Part shown: positions 33,287-59,728 of the stretch, piece by piece
Numbering within the stretch: position 1 is the first letter of the stretch
How the letters are laid out: each line of letters opens with the position of its first letter
Source of the DNA: Nonomuraea cavernae
Lineage (GTDB): Bacteria > Actinomycetota > Actinomycetes > Streptosporangiales > Streptosporangiaceae
Reading direction: 5' to 3'
Length of the DNA: 64,000 nt
Assembly: GCF_014646355.1 (NCBI RefSeq)
Contig: NZ_BMNH01000025.1
Coordinates: forward strand, 1 to 64,000
Made by a program: the position numbers and the translations under genes
The notes under the pieces: model-generated
Databases searched by the model: none
Told to the model about the DNA's origin: nothing
The model's input: the letters and a program-made list of their open reading frames with translations, nothing else

Positions 33287-33322
33287 AGGACTTTGGTCCC
33301 ACCGATCACGGACTTTGCGCCC
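33287..33322. promoter_or_regulatory. pair of DosR boxes (nirK side)
   Basis: AGGACTTTGGTCCC at 33287-33300 (one change from GGGACTTTGGTCCC) and CGGACTTTGCGCCC at 33309-33322, offset exactly 22 bp. A TAGCCT -10-like hexamer at 33347-33352 would place the box centres near -43 and -65, the usual DosR geometry. Confidence 0.75.
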
Positions 33323-33444: not shown

Positions 33445-36168
33445 ATGCCACCCGTCGAGGTGAAGATCGGAGCCAGACCGGAGAACCGGCCGCCCGTCCC
33501 GCCCGCGCGTTCCCGTGCCTCGTGGCACGTCCGGGCGAACGCCGTCGTGCTCGCCTGGCTGGCCTTGACCATCGTGGCCGCGCTCGCCCAGGGCGAACTG
33601 CCCGCGCCCCGCTGGCTGGTGGTCCACGTCTTCCTGCTCGGCGCGATCAGCACCGCCATCCTCATCTGGAGCGAGCACTTCGCCACGGTGCTGCTCCGCG
33701 CCCGGACCCCGGAGCCACCGCGGGGCGGCGTCGCCCGGCTCGGCGCCCTCAACGCCGGGACCGTGGCCGTGCTGTACGGCGTGGCCGTGGGGCCGTGGCC
33801 GGTGGCGGCGGCCGGGGCCGCCCTGGTCGTGGCCGCCGTGACCTGGCACGCGGTCGTGCTCGCCGGAATGGTCAGGCGGGCACTGCCCGGCCGGTTCGGT
33901 CATGTCGTCGGCTGGTACCTCGCCGCGGCTGGCGCGCTGGTGGCGGGCGGCGTGCTGGGCGGCCTGCTCGCGGCGCAGCCCGGTGGCGGAGCCCTGCACG
34001 AGCGGGCGCAGGCCGCGCACGCCCAGGCGAACCTGCTCGGCTGGGTGGGGCTGACCGTGCTCGGCACGTTGTTCACGCTGTGGCCGACGGTGCTGCGCAC
34101 GCGGATCTCCGAGTTGACCCGGCGCTGGTCGCGCGCCGCGCTGTGGCTGTCGGTGGCGGGGCTCGCGGTGACGGTGGCCGGACTCCTTCCCGGCCTGCGC
34201 TGGGTCGCCGTCGCCGGGCTCGTGACGTACGCCGTGGCCGTGGCCGTGGCGCTGGCCCCGCCGGTCGAGACCCTGCGGCGGCGCCGTCCGCACACGGCGG
34301 CGTCCTGGACGCTGGCGGCCGGCGTGGTCTGGTTCGAGGTCGCGCTCGTGGCCGAGGTGGTCGTGGTCGCCACGCGTCCCGTCGAGCGGGTGGCGGCCGG
34401 GCTGGAGCCGTTGCTGCCGCTGATCCTCGCCGGGTTCGCCGGCCAGGTGCTGGTCGGCTCGCTCACGCACCTGCTGCCGGCGGTGCTCGGCGGCGGGCCG
34501 CCCCGGTTCAAGCGCAACGCCGCCCTGGTCGAGCGCGGCTGGGCGTACCGGCTGGCGGCGACCAACCTCGGCGTCCCGCTGCTGGCGCTGCCGGTGCCCG
34601 GACCGCTCCGCCTGCTCGGCTGGGCGCTCGTCCTCGCCCCGGCGGCGGCCTTCGTCGTCCTGGCCGTGACCGCGCTCGCCAGAACCGTGTCGGCCGGTAC
34701 GGGACCCGCCGGGACCGGACCCGCCGGTACGGGGCCGGCCGCGAGCGGAGCGGTCGGTACCGGGCCCGCCAGGGCCGCGGCGGTCGGTACGGGGCCGGCC
34801 GCGAGCGGAGCGGACGCGGGCCCGCCGAGCGACGGCCGCCGGTCGCGGGTGTCGCCCGCCCACGTCGGCGTGCTGATCGGATGCCTGCTGACCGCGCTGG
34901 CCGTGGTGGGCGCGATGTCCGGCGCGGGCGGCCCGGCCCGCACGCGGGTCGCGCCCGGCGCCGAGCAGACGGTGGAGGTCACGCTCAGGGGCATGCGCGT
35001 GCAACCCGGGGTGATCGAGGCCGAGCCGGGCACCGTGCTGACGCTGAAGGTCGTCAACGCCGACGCCCAGCGGCACGACCTGAGGCTGTCCACCGGAGAG
35101 CGCACCCCGGAGCTGGCGCCCGGCGAGAGCGCGGTGCTCAAGCTGGCCCCGCTCGCCGGGCCGGTGGACGGCTGGTGCACGCTCGCCGGGCACCGGGCCG
35201 CGGGCATGACCATGCGGATCGTGCCCACGACCGCGGCGGCGGCCGCGCATTCCGCACAGTCCTCGCCGCCCGGCGGCGACCACGCGCATACCCCGGGCGC
35301 GCGGCTGGATCCGGCCGCGCCGATGCCGTCCGGCTGGAAGCCGTTCGAGGCCGCCCTGGCACCCGCGCCCTCCGGGGCCGAGCACCACGTCGAGATCCGG
35401 GTGCAGGAGACCGACCTGGACGTGGCCCCCGGGGTCCGGCAGCGGATGTGGACGTTCAACGGCACGCTCCCCGGCCCGGTCCTGCGCGGCCGGGTGGGCG
35501 ACCTGTTCGTGGTGACGTTCGTCAACGACGGGGCGATGGGGCACGGCGTCGACTTCCACGCGGGCGCCCTCGCTCCCGACGAGCCGATGCGCACGATCGA
35601 CCCGGGGGAGCGGCTCACCTACCGCTTCCGCGCCGCCCACGCCGGAGCGTGGCTCTACCACTGCTCGACGATGCCGATGAGCCAGCACATCGCCAACGGC
35701 ATGTACGGCGCGGTGATCATCGATCCGCCGGGCCTGCCGCCCGTGGACCGCGAGTACGTGCTCGTCCAGGGCGAGCTCTACCTCGGCACGCCGGACGCCA
35801 GGGCCGCCGCGGTCACCGAGGGCCGCCCGGACGGCTGGATGTTCAACGGCGCCGTGGCGGGCTACAGGCACGCCCCGCTCACCGCCGAGGCCGGTGAGCG
35901 GGCCCGGATCTGGGTGGTGACCGCCGGGCCGGGCACGGGCACCGCGTTCCACGTGGTGGGCGCCCCGTTCGACACCGTCTACAAGGAGGGCGCCTACCTG
36001 CTGCGCGAGGACGACCCGGGCGGCGCCCAGGTGCTGGACCTGGCGCCCGCGCAGGGCGGCTTCGCCGAGCTGGTGTTCCCCGAGGCCGGGCACTATCCGT
36101 TCGTGGACCACCACATGCGCAGAGCGGAGACGGGCGCCTCCGGGATCTTCAAGGTGAGCGCGCCATGA
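33445..36168 (+). CDS. nirK: membrane-anchored copper nitrite reductase fusion (NirK type)
   Basis: 907 residues from ATG 33445 (GAGAGG upstream). Three parts. (1) About 30-430: some 10-11 membrane helices with His-rich turns (WLVVHVFLLG, SEHF, VTWHAVV, AAHAQANLLGWVG, SLTHLLPAVLG) like heme-copper-oxidase-related modules. (2) Gly/Thr/Ala-rich linker, another helix (about 475-495) and a plastocyanin-like cupredoxin with ligands His544, Cys578, His583, Met588. (3) A two-domain NirK core: type-1 copper His700, Cys740, His748, Met753; type-2 copper His705, His739, His836; catalytic Asp703 and His809. All ligands are intact, so reduction of nitrite to NO is expected, with electrons arriving from the membrane part through the cupredoxin. 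Preceded by DosR boxes; the next gene overlaps by 4 nt. Confidence 0.9.
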   Translation: MPPVEVKIGARPENRPPVPPARSRASWHVRANAVVLAWLALTIVAALAQGELPAPRWLVVHVFLLGAISTAILIWSEHFATVLLRARTPEPPRGGVARLGALNAGTVAVLYGVAVGPWPVAAAGAALVVAAVTWHAVVLAGMVRRALPGRFGHVVGWYLAAAGALVAGGVLGGLLAAQPGGGALHERAQAAHAQANLLGWVGLTVLGTLFTLWPTVLRTRISELTRRWSRAALWLSVAGLAVTVAGLLPGLRWVAVAGLVTYAVAVAVALAPPVETLRRRRPHTAASWTLAAGVVWFEVALVAEVVVVATRPVERVAAGLEPLLPLILAGFAGQVLVGSLTHLLPAVLGGGPPRFKRNAALVERGWAYRLAATNLGVPLLALPVPGPLRLLGWALVLAPAAAFVVLAVTALARTVSAGTGPAGTGPAGTGPAASGAVGTGPARAAAVGTGPAASGADAGPPSDGRRSRVSPAHVGVLIGCLLTALAVVGAMSGAGGPARTRVAPGAEQTVEVTLRGMRVQPGVIEAEPGTVLTLKVVNADAQRHDLRLSTGERTPELAPGESAVLKLAPLAGPVDGWCTLAGHRAAGMTMRIVPTTAAAAAHSAQSSPPGGDHAHTPGARLDPAAPMPSGWKPFEAALAPAPSGAEHHVEIRVQETDLDVAPGVRQRMWTFNGTLPGPVLRGRVGDLFVVTFVNDGAMGHGVDFHAGALAPDEPMRTIDPGERLTYRFRAAHAGAWLYHCSTMPMSQHIANGMYGAVIIDPPGLPPVDREYVLVQGELYLGTPDARAAAVTEGRPDGWMFNGAVAGYRHAPLTAEAGERARIWVVTAGPGTGTAFHVVGAPFDTVYKEGAYLLREDDPGGAQVLDLAPAQGGFAELVFPEAGHYPFVDHHMRRAETGASGIFKVSAP
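34725..34813. repeat. 29-bp direct repeat, 60 bp apart, in the nirK linker
   Basis: The same 29 bp occur at 34725-34753 and 34785-34813; the segment between is itself related (GGTACGGG/GGGACC units). It encodes the Gly-Thr-Gly-Pro-Ala linker between the membrane part and the cupredoxin. Confidence 0.8.
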
Positions 36169-36599
36169 CGTGGTGGTCGGTCGTCAGGTTCCTGCATGTG
36201 CTGTCGGCGGCCCTGTGGGTCGGCGGGCAGCTCACGGTGTCGCTCGTGGTGCTGCCGCTGGCCCGCCGGATGCTCGACACCGACCGGCGCGCGGACGTGC
36301 TGCGGGCGGTCGGCAGGCGGTTCGGCATGTTCACCGGCGCGGTGTTCCTGCCGGTGCAACTCGCCACCGGTGTCGCCATCGCCGTCCACAAGGGCGTCAC
36401 CTGGGCGTCGCTGGCCGAGCCCGGCTACGGCCGGACCCTCGCCGCCAAGCTGCTGCTGTTCTGCGTGGTCATGGCCGCCGCCGCGCTGCACGGGTGGGCC
36501 ACGGGGCGGCGGCCTGGCGTCGCCCGGGCACTGGCCGTGATCTCCCTGGTGGGGTCCGTGGGGATCGTCCTGCTGGCGACCGCTCTGCCCGCCACCTGA
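36165..36599 (+). CDS. CopD-like four-helix membrane protein
   Basis: 144 residues, about four membrane helices. The N-terminal RFLHVLSAALWVGGQL resembles CopD/HemJ-like proteins, in which the His and following helix can bind heme or copper; other His residues are at VHKGV and LHGWATG. ATG 36165 overlaps the nirK stop, so it is translationally coupled and may supply copper or electrons to the reductase. That role is inference. Confidence 0.75.
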   Translation: MTWWSVVRFLHVLSAALWVGGQLTVSLVVLPLARRMLDTDRRADVLRAVGRRFGMFTGAVFLPVQLATGVAIAVHKGVTWASLAEPGYGRTLAAKLLLFCVVMAAAALHGWATGRRPGVARALAVISLVGSVGIVLLATALPAT

Positions 36600-36662: not shown

Positions 36663-36676
36663 GGGACCAAAGACCC
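36663..36676. promoter_or_regulatory. DosR box upstream of narK
   Basis: GGGACCAAAGACCC: both GGGAC and the terminal CCC are intact, one position off the G(T/G)CCC half. A half-site (AGGACCC, near 36648-36654) lies about 22 bp upstream. Confidence 0.65.
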
Positions 36677-36747: not shown

Positions 36748-37932
36748 ATGGCTGCCGTTCCCCTGACCCGCGAGCAGACCCGTGGCCGGACCACGGCACT
36801 CGCCCTGGCGACCGCGGCTTTCGCGGTGAACTTCTGGGCCTGGGCGCTGCTGAGCCCCCTGGGCCCGGTCTACAAGGAACTGCTGGGGTTGAGCGCGTTC
36901 GCCGTCTCCCTCCTGGTCGCGGTCCCGGTGATCGTCGGCTCGCTCGGCCGGATGGTGCTCGGCGCGCTGACCGACAGGTACGGCGGACGGCTGGTGTTCG
37001 GCGTCTGCAGCCTGATCGGCGTGCTGCCCGTGCTCTTCCTGGCCTTCGCCGAGAGCTACCCGGCGCTGCTGGCCGGCGGCCTGCTGCTGGGCATCACCGG
37101 CGCGACCTTCGCCATCGGCGTGCCGTACGTCAACGGCTGGTTCCCGCCGGAGCGGCGCGGCCTGGCGCTGGGCATCTTCGGGATGGGCAACATCGGCACG
37201 GCCGTCTCCGGGTTCGCCACCCCGTGGCTGGCCACCGAGTTCGGCCGGCCCGCCCCCTTCTTCGCGGTCGCGGTGGCCCTGGTGGCCGTCGGGCTGGCCT
37301 TCCTCACGATGGGCCGCAACGCCCCCGGCACGCAGGCGGCCACGGAGCCGTTCCTGACCAGGTTCACCGCCGCCGCCCGGCTGCGCGTCACCCGCGAACT
37401 GGCCGCGATGTACGCGCTGACCTTCGGCGGTTTCGTCGCGTTCGGCGTCTATCTGCCGTTGTATCTGGGCGCCGTCTACGACCTGACCGTCGCCGACGCG
37501 GCGGCAAGGACCGCCGGATTCGTGGTGCTGGCCACCCTGGCCCGCCCGGCCGGCGGCTGGCTGGCCGACCGGGTGGGCGGGCCGCTGGTGCTGAGCTGGG
37601 TGCTCGCCGCGGTCTTCGGCTGCGCGATCGTCGTCTCGTTCGCCCCGGGCATGCTCCTGGCCACGGTCGGCTTCCTGGCCATGGCCGCCGCGCTCGGCCT
37701 CGGCAACGGCGCGGTCTTCGCCATCCTGGGCCGGTCCGTGCCCGGCACGATGGTGGGCAGCGCCACCGGCGTGGTGGGAGCCGCCGGCGGCCTGGGCGGG
37801 TTCCTGCCGCCCATCGTGATGGGGCTCATCTTCCAGGCCACCGGCTCCTACTCCATCGGCCTGATGCTGCTGGCGGCCATGGCGCTCGGCGCCTTCGTTT
37901 ACTGCTGGTTCGTCCTGCGCGCACGCGACTGA
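36748..37932 (+). CDS. narK: nitrate/nitrite transporter NarK
   Basis: 394 residues, 12 membrane helices, MFS nitrate-nitrite porter. The two nitrate signatures are present: GIFGMGNIGTAVSGF (about 132-146) and GVVGAAGGLGGFLPP (about 338-352), and a conserved Arg in VGSLGRMVLGALTDRYGG. Takes up nitrate and can exchange it for nitrite. It lies 28 nt before narG, likely co-transcribed with narGHJI from the DosR-controlled promoter. Confidence 0.95.
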   Translation: MAAVPLTREQTRGRTTALALATAAFAVNFWAWALLSPLGPVYKELLGLSAFAVSLLVAVPVIVGSLGRMVLGALTDRYGGRLVFGVCSLIGVLPVLFLAFAESYPALLAGGLLLGITGATFAIGVPYVNGWFPPERRGLALGIFGMGNIGTAVSGFATPWLATEFGRPAPFFAVAVALVAVGLAFLTMGRNAPGTQAATEPFLTRFTAAARLRVTRELAAMYALTFGGFVAFGVYLPLYLGAVYDLTVADAAARTAGFVVLATLARPAGGWLADRVGGPLVLSWVLAAVFGCAIVVSFAPGMLLATVGFLAMAAALGLGNGAVFAILGRSVPGTMVGSATGVVGAAGGLGGFLPPIVMGLIFQATGSYSIGLMLLAAMALGAFVYCWFVLRARD

Positions 37933-37960: not shown

Positions 37961-40900
37961 ATGTCGGGTATGGACGGACCGGTCAGTGACGCACTGCTCC
38001 AACTGGGCAGGCACCTGCGTCCCGGCCGGGTCTCGGACGACCTGCGCACCCTGCACCAGATCGGCGGCCGGCAGGGCGACGCTTTTTACCGCGACCGGTG
38101 GAGCCACGACAAGGTGGTGCGCTCCACCCACGGCGTCAACTGCACCGGCTCCTGCTCCTGGAAGGTGTACGTCAAGGACGGCGTGATCACCTGGGAGGCG
38201 CAGCAGACCGACTATCCCAGCGTGGGCGGTGACCGGCCGGAGTACGAGCCGCGCGGCTGCCCGCGAGGGGCCGCCTTCTCCTGGTACACCTACTCGCCCA
38301 CCCGGGTGCGCTTCCCCTACGCGCGCGGCGTGCTGGTGGAGATGTACCGGGAGGCCAAGGCCAGGCTGGGTGACCCGGTCGCGGCCTGGGCGGAGATCAC
38401 CTCCGACCCGGTCAGGCGGCGGCGCTACCAGTCGGCCCGAGGCAAGGGCGGGCTGGTCCGGATCACCTGGGACGAGGCGACCGAGATCATCGCGGCGGCG
38501 CACGTGCACACCATCAAGGAGTACGGGCCCGACCGGGTGGCGGGCTTCTCGCCGATCCCGGCCATGTCGATGGCCTCGCACGCCGCCGGCTCCCGCTTCG
38601 TCTCGCTGATCGGCGGGGCGATGCTGTCGTTCTACGACTGGTACGCCGACCTGCCGGTGGCCTCCCCGCAGGTGTTCGGCGACCAGACCGACGTCCCGGA
38701 GTCGGCCGACTGGTGGGACGCGTCCTACCTCATGCTGTGGGGCTCGAACGTGCCGGTCACCCGCACCCCCGACGCGCACTTCATGGCCGAGGCCCGCTAC
38801 CGGGGTCAGAAGGTCGTGGTGCTCTCGCCCGACTACAGCGACGCGGCCAAGTTCGCCGACGAGTGGCTGGCCCCGCGTCCGGGCACCGACGGCGCGCTGG
38901 CCATGGCGATGGGCCAGGTGATCCTCAAGGAGTTCTTCACCGACCGCCCGACGCCCTACTTCACCGACTACGTCAAGCGTCACACCGACCTGCCGTTCCT
39001 GGTGCGGCTGCGCGAGCACGAGGGCGGCTCGTACCTGCCGGACAAGTTCCTCACCGCGGCCGACCTGGGGCAGGAGGGCAAGGAGGAGGCGTTCAAGACG
39101 GTCGTGCTGGACTCACGGACCGGCGAGGCGGCGGTGCCCAACGGCTCGCTCGGCTTCCGCTTCGCCGAGCAGGGGCAGGGCCGCTGGAACCTCGACCTGG
39201 GCGATCTCGACCCGGCCCTGACCGTCTACGGCGGCGAGGCCGTCACGGTCGCGCTGCCCCGCTTCGACACCGGCGACGACGGCGGCGTGCTGGAGCGCGG
39301 CGTCCCGGTCCGGCGGATCGGCGGCCACCTGGTCACCACCGTGTACGACCTGATGCTCGCCCAGTACGGCGTGGCCCGCGAGGGCCTGCCCGGCAGGTGG
39401 CCGGCCGGCTACGACGACGCGGACGAGCCGTACACTCCGGCCTGGCAGGAGCGCGTCACCTCGGTCCCGGCGGCCCAGGCGATCCGGGTCGCGCGCGAGT
39501 GGGCCCGCAACGCCGAGGAGTCCAACGGCCGCTCCATGATCATCATGGGGGCGGGGACCAACCACTGGTTCCACTCCGACACGATCTACCGCTCCTTCCT
39601 GGCGCTGACCACGCTGACCGGCTGCCAGGGCGTCAACGGCGGCGGCTGGGCCCACTACGTCGGCCAGGAGAAGTGCCGGCCGGTCACCGGCTGGGCGCAG
39701 CTGGCCGGCGGCCTCGACTGGTCGCGCCCGCCCCGGCAGATGATCGGCACCGCCTACTGGTACCTGCACACCGACCAGTGGCGCTACGACACCTACTCCG
39801 CCGACGTCGTCTCCTCCCCGCTCGGCGGCGGCGCGTTCGCCGGCAAGGCCACCGCGGACCTGCTGTCGCAGTCGGCGCGGATGGGCTGGATGCCGTCCTA
39901 CCCCACGTTCGACCGCAACCCGCTCGACCTGGCCGACGAGGCCGCCGCCGCGGGGCGCGAGGTCGGGCCGTACATCACCGAGCAGGTCGCCTCCGGCGGC
40001 CTCGGCTGGGCCTGCGAGGATCCCGACGCGCCCGCCAACTGGCCGCGCGTGCTGACCGTGTGGCGGGCCAACCTGCTGGGCTCGTCGGCCAAGGGCAACG
40101 AGTACTTCCTGCGCCACCTGCTGGGCACCGACTCGTCGGTGCGGGCCGAGGAGGCGGGGCCGGAGCAGCGGCCCGAGAGCCTCGCCTGGCCGGAGGAGGC
40201 GCCGAGGGGCAAGCTCGACCTGCTGCTGTCACTGGACTTCCGGATGACCTCCACCACGCTGTTCTCCGACATCGTGCTGCCCGCCGCCACCTGGTACGAG
40301 AAGCACGACCTGTCGTCCACCGACATGCACCCGTTCGTGCACGCCTTCTCCCCGGCCATCGACCCGCCCTGGCAGACCCGCACCGACTTCGCCGCGTTCC
40401 ACGCCATCGCCGCGGCCTTCAGCGCGCTGGCCGAGACGCACCTCGGCACCCGCACGGACGTCGTGGCCGTGCCGCTGCTGCACGACACGCCCGACGAGCT
40501 GGCCACCCCGCACGGGCGGGTGCGCGACTGGCGGACCATGGGCACGCGGCCGACCCCCGGCGTCGACTTCCCCAAGCTCGTCACCGTCGAACGCGACTAC
40601 GGCGCCGTCGCGGCGAAGATGGCCTCGCTCGGGCCGCTGACCGAACGGCTCGGCGCCACCACCAAGGGCCTCACCTTCGACCTGGCCGCCGAGGTCGAAC
40701 GGCTGGGCCGGACCAACGGCACGACGGCGGACGGGCGGCCGTCGCTGGCGACCGACATCGCGATGTGCGAGGCCATCCTGGCCCTGTCGGGCACCACGAA
40801 CGGCCGGCTGGCCGCCCAGGGCTTCGCCACGCTGGGCCGCCGTACCGGGACGTCCTTCGACGGCCTGGCCGACGAGCACCGGCGCATCACGTTCGCCGAC

Positions 40901-41608
40901 ACCCAGGCGCGGCCGGTGCCGGTGATCACCTCGCCCGAGTGGTCGGGCAGCGAGACGGGCGGGCGGCGCTACTCGGCGTTCACCACCAACGTCGAGCATC
41001 GCAAACCCTGGCACACCCTCACCGGCCGCCAGCACTTCTACCTCGACCACGACTGGATGCAGGAGGCGGGTGAGGCGCTGCCGGTCTACCGGCCGCCGTT
41101 GAACATGACCGCGATGTTCGGCGAGCCGGGCGTCGGCGAGTCGGGGGTGGACGGGATCACGGTGCGCTACCTCACCCCGCACTCCAAGTGGTCCATCCAC
41201 TCGGAGTACCAGGACAACCTGCTCATGCTCACCCTGTCACGCGGCGGGCCGACCATCTGGATGAGCCCGGCGGACGCGGCCAAGGCGGGCATCGACGACA
41301 ACGACTGGATCGAGGCGGTCAACCGCAACGGGGTCGTCGTCGCCCGCGCCGTCGTCTCGCACCGCATGCCCGAGGGCACCGTGTACATGTACCACGCGCA
41401 GGAACGCGTGGTGGACGTGCCCAAGACCGAGGCGTCCGGGCGGCGCGGCGGCATCCACAACTCGCTCACCCGCCTGCTGGTCAAACCCACCCACCTGATC
41501 GGCGGCTACGCCCAGCTGTCGTTCGCCTTCAACTACCTCGGGCCCACGGGAAACCAGCGCGACGAGGTCACCGTCATCCGGCGCCGTTCCCAGGAGGTCG
41601 ACTACTGA
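37961..41608 (+). CDS. narG: respiratory nitrate reductase, alpha subunit
   Basis: 1215 residues, molybdo-bis(MGD) catalytic subunit facing the cytoplasm; reduces nitrate to nitrite. The FS0 iron-sulfur cluster ligands are His57, Cys61, Cys65 and Cys100 (HGVNCTGSC and GCPRG). The molybdenum ligand Asp230 is in SFYDWYADLP, followed by QTDVPESADWW and WGSNVPVTRTPDAH as in E. coli NarG (Asp222). The MGD-binding C-terminal domain ends in LSFAFNYLGPTGNQRDEV. No Tat signal is present. Strong GAAAGAAGG ribosome site. The stop overlaps the narH start (TGATG). Confidence 0.97.
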   Translation: MSGMDGPVSDALLQLGRHLRPGRVSDDLRTLHQIGGRQGDAFYRDRWSHDKVVRSTHGVNCTGSCSWKVYVKDGVITWEAQQTDYPSVGGDRPEYEPRGCPRGAAFSWYTYSPTRVRFPYARGVLVEMYREAKARLGDPVAAWAEITSDPVRRRRYQSARGKGGLVRITWDEATEIIAAAHVHTIKEYGPDRVAGFSPIPAMSMASHAAGSRFVSLIGGAMLSFYDWYADLPVASPQVFGDQTDVPESADWWDASYLMLWGSNVPVTRTPDAHFMAEARYRGQKVVVLSPDYSDAAKFADEWLAPRPGTDGALAMAMGQVILKEFFTDRPTPYFTDYVKRHTDLPFLVRLREHEGGSYLPDKFLTAADLGQEGKEEAFKTVVLDSRTGEAAVPNGSLGFRFAEQGQGRWNLDLGDLDPALTVYGGEAVTVALPRFDTGDDGGVLERGVPVRRIGGHLVTTVYDLMLAQYGVAREGLPGRWPAGYDDADEPYTPAWQERVTSVPAAQAIRVAREWARNAEESNGRSMIIMGAGTNHWFHSDTIYRSFLALTTLTGCQGVNGGGWAHYVGQEKCRPVTGWAQLAGGLDWSRPPRQMIGTAYWYLHTDQWRYDTYSADVVSSPLGGGAFAGKATADLLSQSARMGWMPSYPTFDRNPLDLADEAAAAGREVGPYITEQVASGGLGWACEDPDAPANWPRVLTVWRANLLGSSAKGNEYFLRHLLGTDSSVRAEEAGPEQRPESLAWPEEAPRGKLDLLLSLDFRMTSTTLFSDIVLPAATWYEKHDLSSTDMHPFVHAFSPAIDPPWQTRTDFAAFHAIAAAFSALAETHLGTRTDVVAVPLLHDTPDELATPHGRVRDWRTMGTRPTPGVDFPKLVTVERDYGAVAAKMASLGPLTERLGATTKGLTFDLAAEVERLGRTNGTTADGRPSLATDIAMCEAILALSGTTNGRLAAQGFATLGRRTGTSFDGLADEHRRITFADTQARPVPVITSPEWSGSETGGRRYSAFTTNVEHRKPWHTLTGRQHFYLDHDWMQEAGEALPVYRPPLNMTAMFGEPGVGESGVDGITVRYLTPHSKWSIHSEYQDNLLMLTLSRGGPTIWMSPADAAKAGIDDNDWIEAVNRNGVVVARAVVSHRMPEGTVYMYHAQERVVDVPKTEASGRRGGIHNSLTRLLVKPTHLIGGYAQLSFAFNYLGPTGNQRDEVTVIRRRSQEVDY

Positions 41609-43260
41609 TGAGAGTCATGGGCCAGCTGGCCATGGTGATGAACCTGGACAAGTGCATCGGCTGCCACACCTGCTCGGTCACCTGCAAGCAGGCCTGGACC
41701 AACCGGGCCGGCACCGAGTACGTCTGGTTCAACAACGTCGAGACCCGTCCCGGGCAGGGCTACCCCCGCACCTACCAGGACCAGAAGAAGTGGAAGGGCG
41801 GCTGGGAGCTGAACGGGCGCGGCCGGCTGAAGCTGCGCGCCGGAGGCCGGCTGCACAAGCTCCTCACCATCTTCGCCAACCCGCTCATGCCGTCCATCGG
41901 CGACTACTACGAGCCGTGGACCTACGACTACGACCGGCTCTTCTCCGCCCCCGCCACCGAGGACACGCCGGTCGCCCGGCCCAGATCGCTCATCAGCGGC
42001 CTGCCGACGAAGATCACCTGGAGTGCCAACTGGGACGACAACCTGGCCGGCTCCCCGCAGCTGGCCTCCGCCGACCCGGTGCTGCGCAAGCTGTCGGACC
42101 AGGTGAAGCTGGAGTTCGAGCAGGCGTTCATGTTCTACCTGCCGCGCATCTGCGAGCACTGCCTCAACCCGTCGTGCGTGGCCTCCTGCCCGTCCGGCGC
42201 GATGTACAAGCGCGCCGAGGACGGCATCGTGCTGGTCGACCAGGACCGCTGCCGGGGCTGGCGCATGTGCGTGACCGGCTGCCCGTACAAGAAGGTGTAC
42301 TTCAACCACCGCACCGGCAAGGCCGAGAAGTGCACCTTCTGCTATCCCCGGGTCGAGGTGGGCATCCCGACCGTCTGCTCCGAGACGTGCGTGGGCCGGC
42401 TGCGCTACATCGGCCTGATCCTGTACGACGCCGACCGCGTCATGGACGCGGCCTCGGTGCCCGACGAGAAGGACCTGTACGAGGCGCAGAAGAGCGTGCT
42501 GCTGGACCCGGACGACCCCGAGGTGATCGCGGGCGCGCGCGCCTCCGGCATCCCCGAGGACTGGCTGGACGCGGCGCGCCGCTCGCCCATCCACAAACTG
42601 ATCTTCGAGTACGGCGTCGCGCTCCCGCTGCATCCCGAATACCGCACGATGCCGATGGTCTGGTACATCCCGCCCCTGTCGCCGATGGTCGACGCGCTGG
42701 CCGGCACCGGCCACGACGGCGAGGACGCGGGCAACCTGTTCGGCGCGATCGACTCCCTGCGCATCCCGGTCGAGTACCTGGCCGAGCTGTTCACGGCCGG
42801 CGACCCCGAGCCGGTGCGGGCCTCGTTGCGCCGCCTGGCCGCCATGCGCTCCTACATGCGCCGCCTCAACCTCGGCCAGAGCCCCGACGAGAGCATCGCC
42901 GCGTCGGCCGGCCTGACCGGCGAGCAGGTCGAGGGCATGCACCGGCTGCTCGCCCTGGCCCCCTACGCCGAGCGTTACGTGATCCCCAAGGCACACGCCG
43001 AGCAGGCCGGGGAGCTGGAGGAGTCGTTCGCCGGGTGCAGCCTCGACTACGAGGGCGGCCCCGGCATGGGCGGCCCGTTCGGCGAGGCGAGCGGCGTGCC
43101 CGCGCCGGTGGCGGTGGAGAACTTCCACGCGCTCAAGGACCGCCAGGGGAGCGGCGCCCTGGTCGATCCGGCCGACCGTTCCGGCCGCGTCAACCTGCTC
43201 AACTGGGACGGCAAGGGGATGCCCGACGGCCTGTTCCCCAAGCGCGAGGAGAAGTCATGA
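41608..43260 (+). CDS. narH: respiratory nitrate reductase, beta (iron-sulfur) subunit
   Basis: 550 residues. Carries four Fe-S clusters between NarI and NarG. Cys groups: CIGCHTCSVTC (about 16-26), CEHCLNPSCVASC (about 182-194), CRGWRMCVTGC (about 215-225; the Trp in place of the second Cys marks the 3Fe-4S cluster) and CTFCYPRVEVG-N5-CSETC (about 243-262). The remaining C-terminal part is the helical NarH domain. The usual tight overlap with narJ (ATGA) is present. Confidence 0.97.
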   Translation: MRVMGQLAMVMNLDKCIGCHTCSVTCKQAWTNRAGTEYVWFNNVETRPGQGYPRTYQDQKKWKGGWELNGRGRLKLRAGGRLHKLLTIFANPLMPSIGDYYEPWTYDYDRLFSAPATEDTPVARPRSLISGLPTKITWSANWDDNLAGSPQLASADPVLRKLSDQVKLEFEQAFMFYLPRICEHCLNPSCVASCPSGAMYKRAEDGIVLVDQDRCRGWRMCVTGCPYKKVYFNHRTGKAEKCTFCYPRVEVGIPTVCSETCVGRLRYIGLILYDADRVMDAASVPDEKDLYEAQKSVLLDPDDPEVIAGARASGIPEDWLDAARRSPIHKLIFEYGVALPLHPEYRTMPMVWYIPPLSPMVDALAGTGHDGEDAGNLFGAIDSLRIPVEYLAELFTAGDPEPVRASLRRLAAMRSYMRRLNLGQSPDESIAASAGLTGEQVEGMHRLLALAPYAERYVIPKAHAEQAGELEESFAGCSLDYEGGPGMGGPFGEASGVPAPVAVENFHALKDRQGSGALVDPADRSGRVNLLNWDGKGMPDGLFPKREEKS

Positions 43261-43865
43261 GCGACCGCGCGGTGCACCTGACGGCCTCGGTGCTGCTCGG
43301 CTACCCCGACGAGCGGCTGGCCGGGGCGGTGCCGCTGCTGGCCGAGACCGTGGCCGGGCTGCCGGCGGGCGAGCCGGCCAGGCGCCTGACCGCCTTCCTC
43401 GACCACCTGGCCGTCACCCCGGTGGCCGAGCTGGCCGAGCACTACGTGGCGACGTTCGACCTCAAGCGCCGCTGCTGCCTGTACCTCAGCTATTACGCCT
43501 ACGGCGACACCCGCAAGCGCGGGATGGCGCTGCTGCGGTTCAAGCACGCCTTCCGGGAGGCCGGGTTCGAGCTCGCCGACGGTGAGCTGCCCGACCACCT
43601 GGCCGCCGTCTGCGAGCTGTCCGGCCGGGGCGCGACCGAGCAGGCGACGCGGCTGCTCCGCGAGCACCGGGCGGGCCTGGAGACGCTGCTGGCCGCCCTG
43701 CGGGACGAACGCTCGCCCTACCAGGACGTGGTCGCCGCCGTCCTGGCCACCCTGCCGCCGCCGACCGCGCGCGAGCGCGCCGCCGTGGCCCGGCTGGCGG
43801 CCGAGGGGCCGCCGGTCGAAGAGGTCGGCCTGCAACCCTTCACGATCCCCGGAGACCCCCGATGA
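43257..43865 (+). CDS. narJ: nitrate reductase molybdenum cofactor assembly chaperone
   Basis: 202 residues, all-helical TorD/NarJ family. Binds the NarG N-terminus and permits cofactor insertion. Characteristic pattern: LTASVLLGYPDERL at the N-terminus and AEHYVATFDLKRRCCLYLSYY (in two overlapping pieces, about 60-80). Overlaps both neighbours by 4 nt. Confidence 0.95.
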   Translation: MSDRAVHLTASVLLGYPDERLAGAVPLLAETVAGLPAGEPARRLTAFLDHLAVTPVAELAEHYVATFDLKRRCCLYLSYYAYGDTRKRGMALLRFKHAFREAGFELADGELPDHLAAVCELSGRGATEQATRLLREHRAGLETLLAALRDERSPYQDVVAAVLATLPPPTARERAAVARLAAEGPPVEEVGLQPFTIPGDPR

Positions 43866-44590
43866 ACGCGCTGGACCTGCTCCTGTGGGTGGCCGCCCCG
43901 TACGTGGCCCTCACCGTGTTCGTGCTCGGCCACGTGTGGCGCTACCGCTACGACAAGTTCGGCTGGACGACGCGCTCCTCCCAGATGTACGAGTCGCGGC
44001 TGCTGCGCGTCGGCAGCCCGTTGTTCCACTTCGGTCTCCTGGTGGTGATCCTCGGCCACGTCGGCGGCCTGGTGATCCCGAAGTCCTGGACGGAGGCGGT
44101 GGGCGTCACCGAGGAGGCCTACCATCTGGTGGCCGTCGTGCTCGGCACCGTCGCGGGCGTGTGCACGCTGGCCGGCCTCGCCATTCTCGTCTACCGCCGC
44201 CGCACCGTGGGCCCCGTCTTCACCGCCACCACCCGCAACGACAAGCTCATGTACGCCGTCCTGGTCCTGGTGATCGTGCTGGGCCTGGCCGCGACCGTCG
44301 CCGCCAACGTCATCGGCGGCGGCTACGACTACCGTTCCACCATCTCGCCCTGGTTCCGGTCGGTCTTCGCCTTCCAGCCGAAGGCGGAGCTCATGGCCGG
44401 GGCGCCGCCGCTCTTCCAGGCCCACGCGCTCAGCGCGCTCCTGCTCTTCGCGATCTGGCCGTTCACCCGGCTGGTGCACATGCTGACCGCGCCGATCGGC
44501 TACCTCACGCGCCCGTACATCGTCTACCGCTCCCGCGACGACCGGCCGGGCCGCCCGGCGCGAGGCTGGGAGCCGAGCAACCGGCCCTGA
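43862..44590 (+). CDS. narI: respiratory nitrate reductase, gamma (cytochrome b) subunit
   Basis: 242 residues, five membrane helices. Takes electrons from the quinol pool and passes them to NarH. Heme b ligand His residues are seen in pairs: SPLFHFGLLVVILGH (about 57-68) and FQAHALSALLLF-N8-VHML (about 184-206). End of the nar operon; the convergent SulP gene begins 33 bp further on, with no obvious hairpin between. Confidence 0.96.
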   Translation: MNALDLLLWVAAPYVALTVFVLGHVWRYRYDKFGWTTRSSQMYESRLLRVGSPLFHFGLLVVILGHVGGLVIPKSWTEAVGVTEEAYHLVAVVLGTVAGVCTLAGLAILVYRRRTVGPVFTATTRNDKLMYAVLVLVIVLGLAATVAANVIGGGYDYRSTISPWFRSVFAFQPKAELMAGAPPLFQAHALSALLLFAIWPFTRLVHMLTAPIGYLTRPYIVYRSRDDRPGRPARGWEPSNRP

Positions 44591-51374: not shown

Positions 51375-54300
51375 TCAGAGCCCGTGGACGCGGCGGCCGG
51401 TGATCCGCTGCGGCACGATGCGGATGTACAGCTCGCGCTCACCGCCCGCCCAGGGGGTCACGCCGGAGCCGACCACCCGCTCGATCTCGTCGGGCGGCAC
51501 ATGGTGGGCCGGCCCCTGGATGAGCACGCTCCAGCCCTCGCGCCTGGCCTCGTCGATCCGGTCGACCTCGAAGCCGATCTTGATGTCCATGCCCTCCACG
51601 CCGGTGCGCAGGTCGCGGTCCATCGGGCCGCCGTGGGCCGTGCGGAAGACGATCGCGCCCTCGTGCAGCCGGTAGTTGACGGGCAGCACGGTGGGCCCGT
51701 ACAGGCCGCTGAAGGCGACCCGGCCGACGCCGCCGGGCGCGACCAGGCGCAGGCACTCGTCACGGTCGAGGGACTCGAGCATCGGATGGGCGGCCGCCGG
51801 GCCGCGTCCCGGCGGCCGGTCGAGGCCGCCGCCGAGCAGGCTCTCGACGGTCGTCTCCAGGGCGGCCGCGAGCCGCCCCAGTGTGCCCGTGGCGAGCGTC
51901 TCGGGGTTCTCCTCCAGGTACTTGACGTAGCCGGCGGCCATGCCGGTGCGCTCGGCGAGCTGCTCGCGGGTCAGCCCGAGGCGTTCGCGGTGGTAGATGA
52001 TGCGGCGTCCGAGGTCGCCCGTCGCGGCCATGCTGGTCCCCCCTTGATCGCTCGTGAACGTACGGCTGGCGCCGCACCTGAGCATGTTCTCGTTGATCCA
52101 CGCGCTCTCGCGGTCGGCGTCGATGAAGAACCGCGCGCCCCGGTAGCGGATCGTCAGCGACATCGTGCCCAGCCGGTCGGGCAGCACCGGGTTGAGACGC
52201 AGCCCGTCGCGGCGCAGCTCCATCCCCAGGTAGCAGCGCTGCAGCAGGTCGAGCGTGCCCGCCATGGCGCCGAGGTGGACGCCTTCGGCGGTGGTGCCGT
52301 GCTGGACGTCCTGGATGTCACTGATCAGGGCCTCGTGGAAGAACCGCCAGGATCCGGCCCGGTCCGATCGGGCGAGCACCCAGGCGTGCACCAGGGCGCT
52401 CAGGGTGGAACCGTGGCTGGTGCGCGCGAGGTAGTAGTGGATCGTGCGGTGGATGAGGCCGGGCTCGCACGGATAGCCGAGCCGCAGCAGCAGCGCCAGC
52501 AGCTCGTCGGCCGTCAGCAGGTAGAAGAGCATCAGCGTGTCGGCCTGCTTGGACGCCCGGTAGCGGTTGACGTCGTCGCCGGCGGCCTCCAGCGCCCGGT
52601 CGAGCCGCCGCACGCCGCGATAGCGCTCCCAGTCGAGCTCCTCCAGGCCGGCGTAGCCGGTGAACTGGCTGATCACGCCGTCGTGGAAGTCGACCCGCAT
52701 CCGCCGGGTGATGTCGTGCCAGCGCTCGGCCTCCTCGGCCGTGCCCTGGAACTCGGGGAACAGCTCCAGCGTGTCGGCGGCCCGCAGCAGCAGCCAGACG
52801 GTCATCACGTTGGTGTAGGCGTTGTTGTCCAGGCCGGGGGACTCGGCCCCGGGGTAACCGTCGTGATACTCGTCGGGGCCCATGACGCCCCGGATCTCGT
52901 AGCGGCCCGACTCCGGGTCCGCCTCGGCCAGCGAGGAGAAGAACCTGGCGATGTCGATCAGCAGCTCCGCGCACCACGGCCGCATCGTGCCGGTCGCCAG
53001 GTAGTGCTGCCAGATGTTGTAGGCGATGGCCAGGCCGGCGTGCCGCTGCAGGTGGGAGTGGTCGGGCAGCCAGCGGCCGGAGTCGGGGTTGAGATGCAGG
53101 GTCTGGGTCTGCTCGGTGCCGTCGCTCGCGCTCTGCCAGGGGAACATCGCGCCGGCGAACCCCGCGGCGCGGGCCGCCGCCCTGGCCTCGGGCAGCCGCC
53201 GCCACCGGTAACGCAGCAGGCCGAGGGAGATGTCGGGAAAGCGGAGGTTCAGCCATGGCATCACGAACAGCTCGTCCCAGAACACGTGCCCCCGGTACGC
53301 CTCGCCGTGCAGGCCCCGCGCGGGCACGCCCGCGTCGATGTCGGCCGTGTGCGGGGAGAGCGTCTGCAACAGGTGGAAGACGTGCAGGTGGACGATCTGT
53401 GAGGTCTCCGGCCCGTCGACGTCGAGCCGGGCGCGCTCCCACAGGCGGTCCCAGGCGGCCCGGTGCCGGGCCAGCAGCGTGTCGAAGCCCGGCGCCAGCC
53501 GCACGGCCCGCACCGCGGTGGAGCGGGCGTCGCTGATCGCGGGATCGCGTGAGGTCACCAGGGCGACGACCTTGGACAGCGTCACCGGCTCGCCCTCGAC
53601 CAGGTCGAGCCGGTACTCCGCGGTGATCCGGTCGGGTTCGCGGGTCGCCTCGCGGGCGGGGACGGCGCAGTCGGCGCGGGCCGCGAAGGCGACCGTGATG
53701 CCGGAGGAGCGGGTGGTGGCGGTCAGCCAGGCCAGGTCGTCCTCGATGCCGGTGGCGTGGCCGGTCAGATGGTCGCCGCGCAGCTCGCGGTAGCGGGCGA
53801 CCCCCCGGTTGGCCACCCGGCCGTCGAGTACGGTCCGCACCCGCATCGGGCCCGACCAGTTCTCCGGGACGAACTCGGTCTCCAGCGCGGCCAGGCGCGG
53901 GTCGGCCATGGACACCAGGCGGCGCTGCCGCACCCGCGTGACGCGGCCCGCCGCGTCACGCCAGCGCAGCAGCCGCAGCAGCACCCCGTGACGCAGGTCC
54001 AGTTCGTGCCGGTAGTCGAGCAGGCCGTCCGTCGCCGGGTCGAACCAGTCGGAGCCGGGCGTGGCGAAGGCCACCGGCAGCCAGTCGGGCAGGTTGACCA
54101 TGTCCTCGTTGGACACCACGCGCCCGGCGACAGTGGAGTCGAGGCGGTTGAAGCAGCCCGCCGCGTAGGTGCCGGGCGTCCGGCCGGCGCCGTCGGGCGT
54201 CGCCCCCCGGGTGGCGAACCGGCCGTTGCCCAGCGTGCACAGCGCCTCCCGGAGCCCTTCGGCCGCCGGGTCGAAGCCCTCGAAGTCCAGGGTCCACGGG

Positions 54301-54383
54301 TTCACCGGCGGCTCACCGGGACGGCTCGCGCGCGGCGGCGCGTACTCCGGGCGGGTCCAGGGATCGATGACGGCCATGCGCAC
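51375..54383 (-). CDS. GH65 phosphorylase fused in frame to HTH-XRE / pyridoxamine-oxidase-like domain
   Basis: One open frame of 1002 residues from GTG 54383 (GGGGG upstream); ATG 54377 is an alternative. Residues 1 to about 770 are a family 65 glycoside phosphorylase (kojibiose, trehalose or maltose type): general acid Glu505 in GPDEYHDG, phosphate loop HGSTLS and HGTTAEGVHLGAMAGT, and KQADT. The usual C-terminal beta-sandwich seems to be cut short. From Met785 a second unit follows without a stop: an XRE helix-turn-helix (GDLGRRIIYHRERLGLTREQ, about 788-845) and a split-barrel flavin-binding domain (about 870-1000). Met785 (ATG 52029-52031) has AAGGGGGG at the ideal 6-nt distance, so a separate 218-aa product is likely. 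Both GH65 and split-barrel proteins occur in DosR regulons. Confidence 0.85.
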   Translation of the reverse strand: MRMAVIDPWTRPEYAPPRASRPGEPPVNPWTLDFEGFDPAAEGLREALCTLGNGRFATRGATPDGAGRTPGTYAAGCFNRLDSTVAGRVVSNEDMVNLPDWLPVAFATPGSDWFDPATDGLLDYRHELDLRHGVLLRLLRWRDAAGRVTRVRQRRLVSMADPRLAALETEFVPENWSGPMRVRTVLDGRVANRGVARYRELRGDHLTGHATGIEDDLAWLTATTRSSGITVAFAARADCAVPAREATREPDRITAEYRLDLVEGEPVTLSKVVALVTSRDPAISDARSTAVRAVRLAPGFDTLLARHRAAWDRLWERARLDVDGPETSQIVHLHVFHLLQTLSPHTADIDAGVPARGLHGEAYRGHVFWDELFVMPWLNLRFPDISLGLLRYRWRRLPEARAAARAAGFAGAMFPWQSASDGTEQTQTLHLNPDSGRWLPDHSHLQRHAGLAIAYNIWQHYLATGTMRPWCAELLIDIARFFSSLAEADPESGRYEIRGVMGPDEYHDGYPGAESPGLDNNAYTNVMTVWLLLRAADTLELFPEFQGTAEEAERWHDITRRMRVDFHDGVISQFTGYAGLEELDWERYRGVRRLDRALEAAGDDVNRYRASKQADTLMLFYLLTADELLALLLRLGYPCEPGLIHRTIHYYLARTSHGSTLSALVHAWVLARSDRAGSWRFFHEALISDIQDVQHGTTAEGVHLGAMAGTLDLLQRCYLGMELRRDGLRLNPVLPDRLGTMSLTIRYRGARFFIDADRESAWINENMLRCGASRTFTSDQGGTSMAATGDLGRRIIYHRERLGLTREQLAERTGMAAGYVKYLEENPETLATGTLGRLAAALETTVESLLGGGLDRPPGRGPAAAHPMLESLDRDECLRLVAPGGVGRVAFSGLYGPTVLPVNYRLHEGAIVFRTAHGGPMDRDLRTGVEGMDIKIGFEVDRIDEARREGWSVLIQGPAHHVPPDEIERVVGSGVTPWAGGERELYIRIVPQRITGRRVHGL

Positions 54384-54412: not shown

Positions 54413-54448
54413 TGGCCCTTGGCCCTGCCCGGACGGGACCTACGGCCC
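54413..54448. promoter_or_regulatory. DosR boxes between GH65 and the second usp gene
   Basis: GGGACCTACGGCCC at 54435-54448 is a perfect match to GGGACC-N3-GGCCC; exactly 22 bp upstream TGGCCCTTGGCCCT (54413-54426) is a weaker copy. The region is the shared divergent promoter. Confidence 0.85.
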
Positions 54449-59714: not shown

Positions 59715-59728
59715 GGGCCGAAGGTCCC
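59715..59728. promoter_or_regulatory. perfect DosR box upstream of the flavin-binding protein gene
   Basis: GGGCCGAAGGTCCC; its complement GGGACCTTCGGCCC is a full match to GGGACC-N3-GGCCC. It lies 3 bp after the devR stop and 37 bp before the next start codon on the minus strand. Confidence 0.85.

Follow-up and report, generated by a model that had tools for sequence, protein, structure and literature searches.

A three-module copper nitrite reductase of Nonomuraea cavernae with a predicted heme-copper oxidase-like membrane domain and a putative bis-histidine site

Introduction

In the copper nitrite reductase (NirK) of Propionibacterium acnes and related Actinobacteria, a 400-aa predicted transmembrane (TM) domain of unknown function occurs together with a cupredoxin (Decleyre et al. 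2016, PMC4770552). The protein studied here shares the layout of this P. acnes-type NirK, a chain of about 900 aa made of the 400-aa TM domain, cupredoxin and NirK, and the three-module architecture as such is already known (PMC4770552). The function of the TM domain was left unassigned in that work, and we add a predicted fold and a putative pair of ligands for it, together with its unfused relatives and partner genes. The closest relative with a solved structure is HdNIR of Hyphomicrobium denitrificans (2dv6), which shares the N-terminal cupredoxin and the NirK core. The TM domain belongs to a type of nirK that is widespread and also occurs in a human skin commensal, and the question addressed is how electrons are supplied to a copper nitrite reductase on the outer face in Gram-positive denitrifiers without soluble cytochrome c.

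We analyzed a stretch of 64,000 nucleotides, here called the window, from Nonomuraea cavernae (GCF_014646355.1, contig NZ_BMNH01000025.1, positions 1 to 64,000), of which a preliminary description had been made from the DNA letters.

Results

Architecture of the chain

The nirK gene is a single open frame at 33445-36168 on the plus strand, translating into 907 codons without an internal stop, and an AGAGG-type ribosome site lies about 8 bases 5′ of the ATG at 33445, near which the starts of the orthologs also fall. Its parts are listed below, with residue numbers here and throughout following the 907-aa window protein (P0001).

33445..36168, plus strand: nirK gene, 907 aa; heme-copper oxidase (HCO)-like membrane module, TM13, cupredoxin and NirK core
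33496..34698, plus strand: predicted HCO subunit I-like membrane module, aa 18-418, with 12 TM helices and both termini inside; AlphaFold2 pLDDT 93, matched to CcoN and NorB by Foldseek and VIA
34711..34851, plus strand: low-complexity Gly/Thr/Ala linker, aa 423-469, predicted to be disordered, pLDDT < 50
34855..34917, plus strand: TM13, aa 471-491, which takes the chain to the outer face in the full-length model
34939..35226, plus strand: cupredoxin domain, aa 499-594, with a full type-1 copper ligand set; PF13473, E 1.1e-8
35380..36159, plus strand: NirK core, aa 646-905, with all type-1, type-2 and catalytic residues; TIGR02376, E 1.1e-43; best PDB match 2dv6

Pfam and NCBIfam clearly recognize just the C-terminal half of the protein, as a cupredoxin and a NirK/multicopper core, and the Pfam scan assigned the membrane part to no family. 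In the full-length model, TM13, the cupredoxin and NirK occupy the residue ranges given above, with disordered linkers between them. The positively charged loops of the module all lie on one side, according to the topology derived from sequence and the full-length model, and since TM13 exports the chain, this places the copper domains outside. The preliminary description had proposed a membrane module, a cupredoxin and NirK in one chain, which is confirmed by the 907-aa frame and by 73 loci with all three parts. A chance or antisense reading frame was ruled out by conservation across many genera, and an assembly accident as the source of the fusion by the 73 loci that share the three-part frame.

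The copper sites were counted in alignment A3 (n=49). The NirK type-1 ligands H700, C740, H748 and M753 are all present, and all but M753 are found in 49/49 sequences, the M753 column holding 47 Met and 2 Leu. Conservation is likewise complete (49/49) for the type-2 ligands H705, H739 and H889, for the catalytic residues D703 and H836, and for the cupredoxin type-1 ligands H544, C578, H583 and M588. These counts bear out the earlier claims that the NirK copper ligands and catalytic Asp and His are intact and that an extra blue-copper domain with a full ligand set precedes them. The PDB chains closest to aa 518-907 are nitrite reductases, with 2dv6 at the top (E 1.9e-47), and the TIGR02376 score of 149.8 bits (E 1.1e-43) lies below the NCBI cut-off of 296.3 bits, which is a naming threshold and not a defining trait. 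Judged by its ligands and relatives, the C-terminal half is a copper nitrite reductase, predicted to convert nitrite to NO.

Fold and kinship of the membrane module

AlphaFold2, run on 60 aligned module sequences, predicted 12 helices (pLDDT 93.2, pTM 0.89), and when this model was compared with the PDB by Foldseek, cbb3 CcoN and cNOR NorB ranked first. Alignment with VIA gave a Z score of 33.3 over 381 residues at 3.1 Å for CcoN (3mk7) and of 31.1 for NorB (4xyd), values that far exceed the level quoted by VIA for unrelated helical proteins. The model thus assigns to the membrane module the 12-helix fold of HCO subunit I. Structure prediction with comparison to NorB and oxidase subunit I was a check that the preliminary description had named, and its view of the membrane part as HCO-related is upheld by the AlphaFold2 fold, Foldseek, VIA and hhalign.

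The module profile gave no match at E<1 to PDB sequences, so that the link to HCOs needed comparison of folds and profiles. Among the module members, some give matches to COX1 (E 1.2e-5 at best) and CcoN (3.6e-5). Using hhalign against a CcoN/NorB sequence set assembled for this analysis, we found that module helices V-VIII align both with CcoN I-IV (prob 85, E 6e-6) and with CcoN IX-XII (prob 91, E 9e-7), in each case with H192 on the first ligand His, which lies in helix II or X of CcoN, while a weak alignment of helices I-IV set HVFLLG, which contains H61, opposite HLALLG, the second His of HxH. The COX1 and CcoN matches, together with the significant alignment of helices V-VIII, support a true relationship to HCO subunit I at the level of sequence. 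Cyclic permutations of the module quarters score equal to or above the native order in hhalign; the quarter-to-quarter correspondence is therefore ambiguous, and a retained and a relocated His site are inseparable. Settling by sequence whether the module is a circularly permuted HCO was given up, as the threefold symmetry makes the order undecidable and hhalign favors the permuted orders. NnrS (PF05940) resembles the module in being polytopic, His-bearing and tied to NO/nitrite metabolism; Pfam scans gave the module no PF05940 match, and a genome search with PF05940 was silent, as was its control.

An invariant histidine pair at heme-ligand register

Subunit I of HCOs is built of three alike quarters with long helices II, VI and X, in which II p0 and X p+2 hold the low-spin heme, VI p+2 serves CuB and X p0 the high-spin heme. 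The CcoN/NorB set has its ligand His at II p0, VI p+2 and X p0 and p+2, with Gly at p+7 (II and X) and Pro at p+22. Module residues were compared over 89 rows, namely 60 of the fused set (A2) and 29 distant, mostly unfused sequences, and the following histidines stand out.

33625..33627, plus strand: H61, helix II position p+2, putative heme ligand, 89/89; register from G66 and hhalign
34018..34020, plus strand: H192, helix VI position p0, putative heme ligand within AAHAQANLLGWVG, 89/89
33676..33678, plus strand: H78, cytoplasmic end of helix II, kept mainly in NirK-fused forms; 55/60 in the fused set, 18/29 in the distant set
33847..33849, plus strand: H135, helix IV; 60/60 in the A2 fused set, 7/29 in the distant, mostly unfused set

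H61 and H192 are the only invariant histidines of the module, in the fused set as well as in the additional sequences that include unfused forms. Gly at +7 and Pro at +22 from H192 are also present in 89/89 rows, and the other invariant residues are W57, G66, G112, G172, G199, P214 and G330. The repeated His in helix turns that had first drawn attention therefore hold in part: H61 and H192 are invariant, while H135 (67/89) and H78 (73/89) are not.

At the positions of the low-spin pair the module has V59 (II p0) and P325 (X p+2), with His in neither column across the 89 rows, and at the position of the high-spin heme b3 His (X p0) it has L323, in a column that is hydrophobic in nearly all of them. 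The CuB position (VI p+2) is Q194, and this column varies between H, A, Q, E and T, with His in 38/89. Helix VII of the window protein contains no His, and hence there is no CuB/FeB His-His pair. By these columns, all the canonical HCO ligand positions are lost in the module. We also rejected AAHAQANLLGWVG as an intact HCO helix-X HxH, since position 194 is variable and the first His alone counts.

A threefold rotation (II to VI, VI to X, X to II) maps the low-spin pair {II p0, X p+2} onto {VI p0, II p+2}, which suggests that H61 and H192 face the helix II/VI pore with bis-His heme geometry. By helix register, H61 and H192 would be the pseudo-threefold equivalent of the bis-His pair of the low-spin heme, and this holds for permutation and relocation alike; helix II is without a Pro anchor, and the register of H61 leans on Gly66 and the weak profile alignments. 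On a rough estimate, two invariant His would fall on one of three such pairs by chance with a probability of about 3 in 74,000. The preliminary description had looked to pairs of His at heme distance in the predicted membrane fold, and what we find is this pair at heme-ligand register, the distance being judged from register. As in a b-type cytochrome, two candidate axial His thus occupy low-spin heme register and would probably bind heme. No quinone site was identified in the module.

Distribution, unfused relatives and a second module

A scan of genome contigs for the membrane module returned 410 relatives. The best 80 of these come, by record title, nearly all from Actinobacteria (Streptosporangium, Actinomadura, Streptomyces, Rhodococcus, Arthrobacter, Mycolicibacterium, Amycolatopsis, Cellulomonas and others), along with one MAG labelled Acidobacteria and one record labelled Bacillus, and 73 of the best 80 loci encode the membrane module, cupredoxin and NirK in one frame; the census of this architecture in Actinobacteria proposed earlier has thereby been carried out. 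Whole-chain orthologs occur in many Nonomuraea genomes and in other families. In Nonomuraea thailandensis (L036/L077) the nirK ortholog looks broken, with a split frame and a gap at about aa 610-775 of the query.

A search of 296 Actinomycetota genomes turned up distant members of the module family, and many of these are proteins of about 420-460 aa that stand alone. A separate nirK adjoins the module gene in 5/20 wide loci of these distant modules from other actinobacterial lineages (L186, L189, L196, L199 and L201), and in L196 nirK, a cupredoxin gene and the module gene are three consecutive genes. The tie between module and NirK is therefore independent of fusion, as expected of a dedicated electron donor. 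Most unfused module genes in the 20 wide loci are not beside nirK, which indicates that the module may serve other partners. Some CcoN-like proteins of other Actinomycetota (L139, L140, L141, L142 and L143) are without the helix-X HxH and apparently have a degenerate HCO fold; in L141 and L143 the CcoN-like frame ends in a cytochrome c-like CxxCH domain.

A further, putatively HCO-like membrane module of about 350 aa, M2, which has no Pfam match, lies directly upstream in some 50 loci out of 100, a count in which a few genomes appear twice. In many loci of Actinomadura and Rhodococcus, M2 has its own gene upstream. In several Nonomuraea (L033, L035, L043, L044 and L046) it is fused in frame before the first module, and the resulting chain has four modules and about 1,280 aa; in one locus (L031:7304-9928) it takes the place of the first module and is fused to cupredoxin-NirK. 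M2 can be aligned with the first module over its full length, though weakly, and at helix II p0 and helix X p+2 it has invariant His (45/45), which would sit at the register of the canonical low-spin heme pair. A search of the genome that contains the window found M2 to be absent.

Gene neighborhood and regulation

The surroundings of nirK contain the following features.

33287..33322, no strand assigned: two DosR/DevR-like boxes upstream of nirK, AGGACTTTGGTCCC and CGGACTTTGCGCCC
36165..36599, plus strand: CopD-like four-helix protein of 144 aa, whose gene overlaps the stop codon of nirK; a candidate partner subunit
36748..37932, plus strand: NarK-family nitrate/nitrite transporter; TIGR00886, E 1e-55
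37961..44587, plus strand: respiratory nitrate reductase genes, with narG at 37961-41608 and narH to 43257; narJ and narI inferred from position

A CopD-like gene lies at most 260 bp downstream of nirK in 34/80 loci, and H11 and H109 of its product are invariant (41/41); it could possibly be a heme b or copper subunit. The neighboring nitrate transporter and nitrate reductase fit a nitrate-to-NO pathway. A PF00115 search of the window's genome returned only three aa3-type COX1 proteins, with no NorB-like match and no canonical NO reductase (NOR), and a TIGR04246 search found no match for NosZ.

Further DosR/DevR-like palindromic boxes occur at 36663-36676, 54435-54448 and 59715-59728, and the same region holds genes for a histidine kinase with a GAF domain (55458), a response regulator of the LuxR type (59734), a universal stress protein (46820) and the nitrate reductase. 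The box region looks like a hypoxia regulon island, with a motif count over the whole window that is not above chance. A DosR-like box was found in 7/72 ortholog upstream regions against about 1.7 expected, and DosR control of nirK as a general rule was rejected because so few orthologs carry the box. Elsewhere in the window, one frame on the minus strand (51378-54383) forms an odd fusion of a glycosyl hydrolase 65, a helix-turn-helix and a pyridoxamine-phosphate-oxidase-like domain.

Discussion

We consider it moderately probable that this copper nitrite reductase is anchored in the membrane and has an electron inlet of its own, an HCO-derived cytochrome b that passes quinol electrons outward to the fused NirK. 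The single chain, the predicted HCO fold with its canonical ligands lost, the two invariant His at ligand register, the complete copper sites and the linkage of unfused modules to nirK are the established basis of this proposal, from which we infer heme binding, the quinol donor and the direction and order of electron transfer. The module would be an HCO subunit I fold minus the O2/NO-reducing center, with one bis-His site either kept or shifted by a third of a turn, and H61 and H192 would together bind one low-spin heme b, lying in the outer half of the membrane. This heme may take electrons from reduced (mena)quinol and hand them to the cupredoxin, whose type-1 copper would lie on the outer face; from there they would move to the type-1 and then the type-2 copper of NirK, at which nitrite becomes NO. 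The oxidase core would in effect be reversed, acting as a quinol dehydrogenase. To our knowledge, Actinobacteria are generally without soluble periplasmic cytochrome c, and an enzyme on the outer face therefore needs a membrane donor of its own. The step through the cupredoxin is weakened by HdNIR of Hyphomicrobium, in which the distance between the N-terminal cupredoxin and the core is said to be too great for electron transfer, and whose type-1 mutant is more active (PMC4770552).

The preliminary description had left open a self-wired nitrite reductase dependent on quinol or heme and a combination of nitrite reduction with NO handling. The kinship with HCOs and the His pair make the former the best reading, while the absence of the HCO catalytic ligands speaks against the latter. 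A module with a catalytic heme or metal site at which NO coming from NirK is reduced or detoxified, in the manner of NorB or NnrS, would suit a fold close to NorB (Z 31.1) and a genome with three aa3-type COX1 as its only PF00115 matches and no recognizable NOR, where NO has no obvious respiratory sink. We nevertheless find this very improbable: the CuB/FeB His set is missing, with none in helix VII and helix VI p+2 not conserved, there is no b3 His in helix X, a bis-His heme offers no open site for NO, and Pfam does not match the module to NnrS. The module as a NOR was rejected for want of these ligands.

Two other readings dispense with the heme. One sees in the module a cofactor-free scaffold of HCO fold that only anchors or oligomerizes the cupredoxin-NirK part on the outer face, with electrons arriving from, for instance, the tethered cytochrome cc of the bcc complex; the loss of all canonical cofactor ligands agrees with it, as do the degenerate CcoN-like proteins of the same phylum (L139-L143) and the statement that some actinobacterial NirK proteins are without the TM domain (PMC4770552). 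It is unlikely in our view, since exactly two His are invariant in 89/89 rows, at ligand register and facing each other by symmetry, while the other conserved His drift, and since an anchor needs one helix and not twelve. The other makes the module a copper-handling device, in which H61 and H192 bind copper and, together with the CopD-like protein, supply the cupredoxin and NirK. The CopD-like gene behind nirK in 34/80 loci, with the two invariant His of its product, is what speaks for this, but fold and His register match heme sites and not known copper carriers, heme binding is equally possible in the CopD/DUF2269-like group, and many fused loci have no CopD-like gene nearby, so that we give it a low probability, below that of the scaffold.

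Returning to the electron inlet, a broader form of the proposal is plausible but more tentative. An oxidase core may have been turned into an electron donor by discarding its catalytic center and placing one bis-His heme in the third pore (II/VI), giving a one-chain quinol:nitrite oxidoreductase and, with M2, a family of cytochromes b that have the oxidase fold without being oxidases. If true, the HCO fold would have been put to a new use, donating electrons instead of serving as their sink. The specific fold, the two named ligand residues and the defined set of neighbors make the idea directly testable, including by spectroscopy.

The HCO-like nature of the NirK TM domain was not found described in the openly searchable full-text literature, and, judged against that literature, the TM domain as a predicted HCO-fold module with a single displaced bis-His site, along with its unfused relatives, appears to be new. 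Compared with the known systems, HdNIR (2dv6) differs from the window protein in having no membrane module. CcoN (3mk7) and the cNOR NorB (4xyd, 3o0r) share with the module the 12-helix fold of three four-helix quarters, but the ligand positions for heme b, heme b3 and CuB are filled in these proteins and all empty in the module. The helix II/VI pore is, as far as we know, empty in all known HCOs, whereas in the module it would hold the His pair. The eNOR/sNOR enzymes and quinol oxidases also pair an HCO core with an outer-face cupredoxin domain or with quinol; they reduce NO or O2 in that core, whereas the core of the module appears to be without a catalytic site and catalysis would take place in NirK.
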